Assembly: GCA_947589115.1 (NCBI GenBank)
Contig: CANPZP010000012.1
Span: 1 to 39,171, forward strand
DNA length: 39,171 nucleotides
Source of the DNA: Candidatus Gastranaerophilales bacterium
GTDB lineage: Bacteria > Cyanobacteriota > Vampirovibrionia > Gastranaerophilales > Gastranaerophilaceae
Reading direction: 5' to 3'
In this document: positions 2,929 to 36,610 of the stretch, piece after piece
Numbering within the stretch: the first letter of the stretch is position 1
Layout: every line of letters starts with the position of its first letter
Notes under the pieces: generated by a model
The model's database searches: none
What the model was told of the DNA's origin: nothing
The model's input: only the letters and a program-made list of their open reading frames with translations
Made by a program: the position numbers and the translations under genes

Positions 2929-2957
2929 TTGCACAAAATTACAATAAGTGTTAGAAT
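2929..2957 (+). promoter_or_regulatory. Sigma70-type promoter of pilin-like gene 1
   Basis: TTGCAC (2929-2934), a 17-nt spacer and TAGAAT (2952-2957), with +1 expected at about 2963-2966. The stretch from the distal spacer to the start codon is almost identical to the promoter of the second pilin-like gene (35817-35845). Confidence 0.7.
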
Positions 2958-2989: not shown

Positions 2990-3695
2990 ATGGAAAATAT
3001 GCATCAAATCTACCCCCCCCCGTAGCGGAAAAACCAAATCATTTACTCTTGCTGAGGTTTTAATTACTCTTGTAGTTATCGGAATTATTGCAGCAATAAC
3101 TGTTCCCATTGTTTCGGCAGTCCACAAAAGGCAGGAAACTTCGGCAAAATTAAAAAAGTTTTACTCGGCACTTTCTCAAGCCGTAAGATTAGCACAAGTT
3201 GATAACCATGATTTTATAAAAGATTCCGGAGCGGAAAGACATTTTGATAATTTTGATATATGGTGGAATAAATATTTAAACAGTTTACCTGTTACAAAAC
3301 ATGAGAATACAACATATCAAATCCTTGACCCGACTATTGAAACAAGTTATACGCCTAAATATATTTATACTTTAAATGACGGTACCATACTTTATCCTTA
3401 TAACACGTTTTATAGCGGAAATCTTATAGAAATATTAATTGATGTTAACGGCGAAAAAGGCCCTAATTATCCGGGAAGAGATGTATTTCAATTCCGTATT
3501 CAGCAATATGATGAAAGTGATAATAACATACACTTCGTAAAAGTATGTACCAGTCCTGATTCATGCTATTCTTGGGGAAATTATAACAGAAACGGTGCCA
3601 TTAGGAGTTGTAAAGATGGGTTCTTTCAAACTTGTACTCAATTAATCCAAAATGACGGATGGGAAATAAAAGACGATTACCCAATAAGATTATAA
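2990..3695 (+). CDS. Pilin-like protein 1, interrupted by a poly-C tract (apparent phase-OFF)
   Basis: Translation starts at ATG 2990 after an AAGGAG site. A nine-C run (3013-3021) then shifts the frame, and TAG (3023-3025) ends it after 11 residues. The downstream frame is open to TAA at 3693-3695 and has no internal ATG, so a simple ORF finder misses it. Removing one C (or adding two) gives a 234-aa protein with a 17-residue basic leader ending in SGKTKS. The type IV pilin/pseudopilin methylation motif FTLAEVLITL (mature Phe1 = residue 18, Glu5 = residue 22) and a hydrophobic helix follow. The globular domain contains DVNGEKGPN, a Cys pair and a terminal DGWEIKDDYP motif. Prepilin peptidase would remove the leader that holds the tract, so tract changes in multiples of three would not alter the mature fibre subunit. 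Either slippage or an assembly error could explain the frame. The pilin-like identity is strong; the exact fibre type is unknown. Confidence 0.82.
3013..3021 (+). repeat. Homopolymer C9 tract in the leader of pilin-like gene 1
   Basis: Nine consecutive C in otherwise AT-rich DNA, beginning with the last base of a Tyr codon. Eight or eleven C put the start codon in frame with the pilin body; nine C do not. It lies at the same codon as the C9 tract at 35901-35909. Confidence 0.9.
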
Positions 3696-34758: not shown

Positions 34759-34821
34759 GTGCTTTTCACCTTACTATATTTACTAATTTATGATGTTTTA
34801 TATTAACATAATAATACTTCA

Positions 34822-34849
34822 TTGTGAAATAGAAATTTTAATGTATAAT
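34822..34849 (+). promoter_or_regulatory. Sigma70-type promoter of the glycosyltransferase gene
   Basis: TTGTGA (34822-34827), a 16-nt spacer and TATAAT (34844-34849), with +1 near 34856. A small GTAATC/GATTAC hairpin follows in the leader. Confidence 0.5.
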
Positions 34850-34891
34850 ATTATAGTAATCACAAAGATTACGTATAAACGGAATTATACT

Positions 34892-35777
34892 ATGAAAAAA
34901 GCATCAATAATTACTTTAACATATAATCAGCTTGAAAGAGCAACAAAACCATATATTGAGTCTTTATATAAAAATACCGATGAAAAATTATTTAATCTTA
35001 TAATAGTTGACAATGGTTCAACTGACGGCACAGTAGAATATCTTAAAACGCTCATGAAAGAAAAAAATAATTTACATGTTATTTTTAATGCAGAGAATAA
35101 GGGATATTCAAAAGGAAATAATCAGGGTATTAAATTTGCATTAGAATATAGCCAAAATGCAATGGGGGGGGGGAGATAAAGCCCCTGAATTTATCGGATT
35201 ATTAAATAACGACATATATTTTCAAAAAAATTGGCTTGAAACAATAATAAATTTTATAGAAAATACTCCTGATGCCGGATTGGTTTCTCCTTCTCTGCTT
35301 GGCAGAAAAAAACATAATCTTAAAAAGTTTATTAATAATAAATATAATTTTAAATATAAAAATGCAGCTCACAAAGTAATGTTTGCAAATTTTTGTTGTG
35401 TTTTATTCAGAAAAAACATAGTTGAAGAAATAGGATTGCTGGACGAAAATTTTACTCCCGCATTTTATGAAGATACTGACTTTTCATTCAGATGCACTCA
35501 AGCGGGAAAACAAAATTATGAATTAAATAATGTATATATTTTCCATAATTACAGTCTTACGAGTTCAAAATTAAATAAAATTGATAACATTTATAAAAAG
35601 AATGAACAATATTATTATAAAAAGAACGGCTATATTGCCCAATACGCTTGGGAATCATTTGTAAAAATCAGCACAATTAAATCAAGTCCTTTTTATAAAT
35701 TGATAACTCTTGAAAAATGTATTAAACAAAGATATGAAAAAATATTTAGAGGGTTAAATAAAATCATACAAAAATAA
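34892..35777 (+). CDS. Family 2 glycosyltransferase, interrupted by a poly-G tract (apparent phase-OFF)
   Basis: Reads MKKASIITLTYNQ from ATG 34892. The frame is open upstream to 34790, but the family starts here. It then runs through VDNGSTDGT (nucleotide-sugar Asp) and NKGYSKGNNQGI. A run of ten G (35164-35173) puts it in the wrong frame and TAA ends it at 35177-35179 after 95 aa. The next frame continues with FIGLLNNDIYFQ (metal-binding Asp), FCCVLFRK, and FYEDTDFSFR (ED catalytic region), to TAA at 35775-35777. Nine G would join both halves into 294 aa with all GT2 motifs in order, so this is not a decayed pseudogene. Length changes by three would only add or remove a Gly in a loop. It lies 100 nt before the second pilin-like gene; modification of that protein or a surface glycan is plausible. 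An assembly error is the alternative. Confidence 0.82.
35164..35173 (+). repeat. Homopolymer G10 tract inside the glycosyltransferase gene
   Basis: Ten G in a row following an ATG codon, in AT-rich DNA. Nine or twelve G join the two halves of the gene in one frame; ten G do not. Confidence 0.9.
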
Positions 35778-35877: not shown

Positions 35878-36610
35878 ATGAAAAATAAGCATCAAATCTA
35901 CCCCCCCCCGTGGCGGAAAAACACTTGCGTTTACTTTATCTGAGGTATTAATTACTCTTGTCGTTATAGGAATTATAGCTGCAATTACCGTTCCGATTGT
36001 AATGCAAAATCATAAAAGAACTGAAACAGCAGCAAGATTGAAGAAAATGTACTCATCTATTTCGCAGGCAATAAAACTTGCGGAAGTAGAACAAGGTGCG
36101 CCCATTTCCGAATGGGGAAATACTTGGGGTGATGCAACATATGAAGATTATAGAGGAAAAAATTACAGCGCCTTATATATATGGAAAAAATATTTAAATA
36201 AATATTTACCGTTAGACAATAATACAGAATGCCATGATTATTCAAGCTGCGATTATTTACTTCAATTTAATGACGGCTCACAGATTGTTTATTTAAGTTG
36301 GACATATAGTCGGAGTTGGACAGCTGTGAATGATACACCAGGTTACTTTTATTTTACTGTTGATGTTAACGGTTTTAAAGGTCCGAATAAAGAAGGCAGT
36401 GACCGTTTTGATTTTTATGTTAACTTAAAAGAGAACCCTAAACACTTATTGGGAGGAACTCTTGTATATAATGAAGTTTATAATAATAAGACAAACTACA
36501 CAAGAGAAGAACTGCTTAAAGACTGTAAATCTGGCTCTGCTGGCCGTTGTCTTGATTTAATTATGAATGACGGATGGGAGATAAAGAACGATTATCCAAG
36601 AAAGCTTTAA
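35878..36610 (+). CDS. Pilin-like protein 2, interrupted by a poly-C tract (apparent phase-OFF)
   Basis: ATG 35878 follows AAGGAGAG. As written, nine C (35901-35909) shift the frame and translation stops at TGA 35941-35943 after 21 aa. Removal of one C (or two extra) gives 243 aa. The 17-residue leader ends GGKTLA, and the methylation motif FTLSEVLITL follows (Phe18, Glu22) with a hydrophobic helix. The globular domain carries DVNGFKGPNKEGSDRF, a Cys-rich middle and a terminal NDGWEIKNDYP. The DVNGxKGPN block recalls the calcium site of GspG-type pseudopilins. The C-terminal motif and the 5' leader match pilin-like gene 1, while the middle has diverged. The first ATG in the pilin frame after the tract is at 36002, which would yield a protein lacking the secretion signal. 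An internal start is therefore not a useful alternative. Confidence 0.83.
35901..35909 (+). repeat. Homopolymer C9 tract in the leader of pilin-like gene 2
   Basis: Nine C starting with the last base of the Tyr codon, at exactly the same codon and with the same length as the tract at 3013-3021. Eight or eleven C give the open frame. Confidence 0.9.

Follow-up and report, generated by a model that had tools for sequence, protein, structure and literature searches.

A probable phase-variable repertoire of pilin-like genes with C or G tracts in the leader in Gastranaerophilales

The closest described counterparts of the genes analyzed here are the opa genes of pathogenic Neisseria, which carry CTCTT repeats in their leader-peptide region (PMC3960869). 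Both are dispersed multigene surface families in which a repeat in the leader slips the frame (demonstrably in opa, putatively here) and leaves the mature protein untouched. The two differ in that opa uses pentamer repeats in genes for outer-membrane adhesins, whereas the genes of the Gastranaerophilales genome studied here combine a C or G homopolymer with a class III prepilin leader in about 33 copies, and switching has been demonstrated for opa only. The contingency loci of Campylobacter jejuni, with 29 poly-G/C tracts of 7 or more bases in strain NCTC11168 (PMC4965091), are similar in having C/G runs within an AT-rich genome, frame switching of coding sequences (inferred in our case) and sugar-transferase targets. 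However, C. jejuni lacks mismatch repair (PMC4235727), whereas a MutS gene is present in the genome studied here. Also in contrast to C. jejuni, a single length predominates among the tracts of one gene family in this genome, with the pilin leader as the main target.

Pilus genes of Neisseria provide two further comparisons. Pilus switching by frameshift was described for gonococcal pilC (Jonsson et al. 1991, cited in PMC4471445), a parallel for the control of pilus expression by a frameshift in a pilus gene, although pilC is an assembly/tip gene and not a pilin subunit, whereas in Gastranaerophilales the tract is found in dozens of genes for pilin-like subunits. The pilE/pilS system resembles the tract-bearing pilins in its many pilin variants with a conserved N-terminus. 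Antigenic variation at pilE/pilS proceeds by recombination from silent copies; every copy in the genome studied here, in contrast, is equipped with a promoter and an ATG of its own.

Little is known about the surface biology of Gastranaerophilales, which are gut bacteria related to cyanobacteria but not photosynthetic, and a search of the open-access literature (subscription papers fell outside it) found no paper joining this group with phase variation. The mechanism as such has precedents outside this group; what is probably new, in our judgment, is the lineage, how many pilin genes are involved, the position of the tract within a prepilin leader, and the uniform default state, a single step away from ON. 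If our reading is true, tens of switchable pilins per genome, found family-wide, would rank among the richest contingency systems of the gut, and would explain why Gastranaerophilales pilin genes look broken in assemblies.

The C9 cassettes of the window and their products

The window, that is, the whole stretch of 39,171 nucleotides analyzed, contains near its left end a cassette composed of the following elements.

2952..2957, forward strand: extended -10 element (TG-T-TAGAAT), a consensus match only, with the conserved form tg.TaAAAt across 24 aligned C9 cassettes from the genome
2977..2982, forward strand: Shine-Dalgarno sequence AAGGAG, 7 nt 5' of the ATG, near-identical across C9 cassettes
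2990..3012, forward strand: start codon and pre-tract leader (MENMHQIY), the ATG being invariant in 24/24 aligned cassettes
3013..3021, forward strand: C9 tract, the proposed switch, of length nine in 33 of the 34 distinct pilin tracts of the genome
3022..3041, forward strand: post-tract leader (RSGKTKS in the pilin frame) up to the predicted prepilin peptidase site, with Ser at -1
3042..3692 (stop at 3693-3695), forward strand: pilin-like body FTLAEVLITL..., 217 aa, supported by Pfam/NCBIfam profiles, profile matches to solved pilins and a structure model

Read from the ATG at 2990, the sequence runs TAC CCC CCC CCG TAG, with the stop codon immediately 3' of the tract, and yields only MENMHQIYPPP*. 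The body, which starts as FTLAEVLITLVVIGIIAAIT... and is open from 3042 to 3692, is reached from this ATG with one base less or two more (C8 or C11), giving 17 leader plus 217 body residues. Both the nine C followed shortly by a TAG in the ATG frame and the 234-aa pilin-like protein obtained with eight or eleven C had been proposed in the initial annotation, and both held. The tract and the frame offset are thus shown. In most cassettes, this one included, no other start with a good Shine-Dalgarno sequence was found in the pilin frame, and a stop near the Shine-Dalgarno sequence closes that frame upstream.

A chance origin of the C9 run was ruled out by dinucleotide shuffles (0.02 nine-mer matches expected in the window, 4 observed) and by the bimodal distribution of C/G run lengths, with 61 runs of four, nine of five, none of six to eight, two of nine and one of ten. 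A repeat tract near the 5' end of a reading frame, beyond chance expectation, is one criterion for a contingency locus, and the window gene meets it.

Several lines of evidence identify the body as pilin-like. It scored above the cut-off of NCBIfam TIGR02532 and slightly below that of Pfam N_methyl, and its profile matched the solved type IV pilins PilA, PilE1, GspG and geopilin through the helix (E 1e-5 to 4e-4). A structure model (pLDDT 88) predicts a helix at residues 3-54 followed by strands forming a beta head; together with the profile matches, it fulfills the criterion of a long N-terminal helix plus beta-sheet head for a type IV pilin. On the other hand, a Foldseek search of the PDB with this model gave no significant match, and VIA-align to gonococcal pilin was weak (Z 4.0, rmsd 4.3, 134 aligned residues), with unrelated rows reaching similar Z.

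As to the leader, class III signal peptides are defined, with a -1 Gly called critical, in PMC4471445. The requirement for a hydrophilic leader of 6-26 aa followed by a 21-residue hydrophobic stretch with Glu5 is met by the 17-aa leader if it is read in frame, and E5 of the hydrophobic stretch FTLAEVLITLVVIGIIAAITV is invariant in 26 members. The Gly-ended leader is not found: the -1 residue of the tract-bearing pilins of this genome is Ala in 22, Ser in 11 and Thr in one, as against Gly in 66/128 and Ala in 52/128 copies from relatives and Gly in 15/25 tract-less paralogues. One PF01478 match above cut-off shows that the genome encodes a prepilin peptidase. That such an enzyme removes the leader part encoded by the tract is therefore plausible, and we consider it probable, yet it remains unproved because the -1 Gly is missing and no cleavage has been shown. 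The proposal that the tract encodes the part removed by prepilin peptidase held in part, since the tract does lie upstream of the predicted site and the -1 residue is Ser, not Gly. We therefore class the window protein as pilin-like; that these proteins form pili is an inference.

A separate observation concerns DUF6613 (PF20318), which was matched by 10 of 26 aligned tract-bearing pilins (best 1e-14) and probably represents a pilin head of the Gastranaerophilales lineage.

The window holds a second, identical pilin cassette, and directly upstream of it a family 2 glycosyltransferase split into two halves in overlapping frames.

34790-35179 and 35157-35777, forward strand: the two halves of the glycosyltransferase
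35164..35173, forward strand: G10 tract splitting the glycosyltransferase, adjoining the second pilin
35878..35900, forward strand: second copy, start and pre-tract leader (MKNKHQIY)
35901..35909, forward strand: second copy, C9 tract, with the frame offset of the first copy
35930..36607, forward strand: second copy, pilin-like body, 226 aa

The split glycosyltransferase is likely to be a second phase-variable gene of the window, an inference from its sequence. Only the tract at 3013-3021 had been seen initially; the second C9 tract and the G10 tract had been missed.

The pilin repertoire of the genome and of its relatives

The genome (1.82 Mb in 98 contigs, about 96% complete; DNA read only around tracts and pilins) contains 105 overlapping nine-mer C/G matches, which correspond to about 75 distinct tracts, and a search with the pilin N-terminus revealed about 64 pilin-like loci. 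About 33 of the pilins bear a tract (34 distinct contexts, the tract being of nine bases in 33 and of ten in the remaining one), which rules out a single odd gene. Two main cassette types were found, ATG-n20-C9-GTGGCGGAAAAAC and ATG...ACCCGCAC-G9-TAAAAT. Among the 34 copies with a readable start, 31 share a one-base offset in a common direction, two have the alternative wrong frame, and a single copy, with G9 and located on contig C15, is in frame. In most tract-less paralogues the leader is short, its in-frame ATG lying 4-7 codons 5' of the body, as in MKKNKG|FTL.

The tract-bearing bodies are intact and under purifying selection, as 27 of those with a closed body have at least 192 aa, only two being short (L018, 55 aa; L029, 108 aa), and dN/dS for the closest pairs is 0.24-0.42. 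The median identity among bodies is 40%, the leaders being far more alike.

Of 191 genomes searched across the family, 20 have a C run before the pilin motif and 42 have a G run, in many genera; reversed-pattern controls gave no matches. The initial annotation, which had considered a single gene, was thus too narrow: the system is genome-wide and family-wide. Bodies in relatives are also intact (111 of 116 closed bodies), and start frames 0, 1 and 2 are represented by 21, 32 and 68 copies among about 120 inspected. Copies of the same cassette in one genome were found ON and OFF at lengths one base apart: G10 OFF in twelve copies and G11 ON in two (G062), C9 OFF in five and C10 ON in one (G107), G10 ON in five and G11 OFF in two (G082), and C8 ON in four and C9 OFF in three (G052). 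These one-base ON/OFF pairs, shown here as reading frames, are the trace expected of a slippage switch. At a locus shared by two relatives (G202 and G211, sequences compared by eye), a 720-nt body is 100% identical and the upstream flank 99% identical, with G10 plus A in one and G9 in the other.

A length difference was also found within the source genome, where the right end of contig C68 and the left end of C41 overlap by 112-113 bases and differ only in C10 versus C9, so that the assembly contains this locus in two lengths. Where other contigs meet at repeats, the overlap is in some cases exactly 77 bases, which is probably the word length of the assembler, and the exact match on each side of the C10/C9 difference is shorter than this, from which we infer why the two contigs were not joined. 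Either both lengths exist in the population, or a small number of reads at low coverage carried an error. A further criterion for contingency loci, tract length differing between copies or strains with a change of frame, is met by this overlap, the G202/G211 locus and the same-cassette paralogues.

In the genome itself, on the other hand, the pilin tracts are all of nine bases (one locus nine/ten) despite a dS of 0.2 or more between closest paralogues, whereas the other tracts number 18 of nine, 19 of ten, three of eleven and one of twelve (Fisher p 3e-7 versus pilin tracts). As the nine-long tracts of the latter group include orphan pilin leaders, the contrast is even stronger. The length seems to be maintained at a default value a single step away from ON, through selection for OFF, gene conversion of the leader or programmed slippage, each no more than a possibility. 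How a slippery tract stays at one length is the question raised by this uniform OFF-by-one state.

Phase variation and the competing explanations

The likely and best reading, in our view, is a repertoire of phase-variable pilins that are mostly OFF and are switched when the tract slips, with the reservation that switching is inferred and no reads were examined; it could be tested with existing metagenome reads. In this proposal, each pilin-like gene of the repertoire would have its own promoter, ribosome site and ATG, and its leader would contain a C or G tract; replication slippage in the tract would change its length by one base, so that the ATG would either come to share the reading frame of the pilin body or cease to do so. 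With a tract of nine bases, as in the source genome, translation would end soon after the leader and the gene would be OFF, while rare length variants would express the full prepilin. With most copies one step from ON, few of the many pilins would be displayed per cell at once. Slippage in living populations and the silence of the OFF state are both inferred.

The contingency gene proposed in the initial annotation is therefore supported as the likely reading by the ON/OFF copies, the C9/C10 overlap and the selected, intact bodies, switching itself being inferred. A homologue without a C run had been named as refuting. A contig scan found only one relative, the homologue L206 from a Gastranaerophilales MAG, which indeed lacks the tract and is in frame; it is, however, an in-frame paralogue of the ordinary kind and as such is no refutation of the switch. 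Three points do weigh against free switching. Freely slipping tracts should differ in length, as the other tracts of the genome do, and the pilin tracts are uniformly nine; in-frame copies in relatives amount to 20 of 92, below one third (p 0.02, copies not independent); and MutS, being present, should slow slippage.

The rival that survives best, although we regard it as unlikely, is programmed slippage, in which a tract length of nine would be purposely maintained and a fixed small share of full-length product would arise from each copy through RNA polymerase slippage or +1 ribosomal frameshifting (CCC-C/GGG-G), the tract acting as a setter of low expression and not as a switch. Slippage by +1 on C and G runs is an established phenomenon. 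In its favor, 33 of 34 pilin tracts are exactly nine, the offset is common to the C and G cassettes of the genome, and almost every copy has its only Shine-Dalgarno-ATG in a wrong frame, yet the bodies are under selection. Against it, a programmed site should keep the start-body offset in all members, and this is not the case: the offset is shared by 31 of 34 copies in the genome, while other genera have different lengths and offsets, frame 2 being the commonest, and the ON and OFF copies of one cassette at adjacent lengths are hard to square with a site that keeps its offset. A bolder version, also unlikely in our view, would have dozens of pilins fixed OFF-by-one and expressed only via low-level programmed slippage or frameshifting, with the tract as a conserved expression limiter that is also mutable to full ON, a two-mode control of the repertoire.

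The remaining explanations are very unlikely. Out-of-frame copies could be silent donors that store bodies to be recombined through the shared leader into an expressed locus, as in pilS/pilE, for which the greater similarity of leaders than of bodies might be invoked; however, each copy has its own promoter, Shine-Dalgarno sequence and ATG, the genome yielded no single expressed locus that carries this leader in frame, and tract purity would be unnecessary. Decay of duplicated pilins broken by a shared ancestral frameshift would fit the nearly general loss of frame and the few short bodies, but not the persistence, in AT-rich DNA, of intact bodies of about 217 codons with dN/dS well below 1. 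Finally, a homopolymer error of sequencing or assembly might be suspected in a fragmented draft genome with many contigs ending in pilin cassettes, but the same length recurs at about 33 loci, tracts of 10-12 occur elsewhere in the assembly, and tracts lie at the equivalent place in dozens of other genomes.

Further C/G tracts in the genome and its relatives

About 40 further C/G tracts of 9-12 bases are found in the genome, several splitting surface-sugar genes and others in frame, which gives the pattern of a contingency-rich genome. Around 30 tracts of this length lie within genes or at gene ends, some in frame and some splitting the gene (L014, L032, L033, L034, L038, L043, L056 and L057, among others), and the genes concerned include two TupA-like ATP-grasp proteins, two CTP transferases, short-chain dehydrogenases, an APH-type kinase and a polysaccharide pyruvyl transferase.

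Seven G9 leader cassettes are orphans (L018, L026, two in L033, L039, L045 and L055). Six have a tract-less short-leader pilin about 170 bp downstream, and that of L039 stops at the contig end. Translation of these cassettes in the shifted frame would give a short peptide with a hydrophobic end, and they may be either relic leaders or small regulated peptides, both mere possibilities. A group of proteins with a pilin-like N-terminus, FSLAELLISLL, reaches 800 aa or more (L016, L024, L053 and L071), and at three of the four loci a C/G tract lies within the reading frame or at its end.

Among relatives, one genome (G159, contigs C8, with L098, C35 and C86) has C runs as long as 52 bases that stand at the ends of contigs and precede pilin bodies; these could be real giant tracts or assembly artefacts. 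Others, including G176, G081, G049 and genomes of further genera, contain several hundred to more than 1000 overlapping nine-mer C/G matches each, with few or no tracts before the searched pilin motif, which indicates that other gene families carry them.
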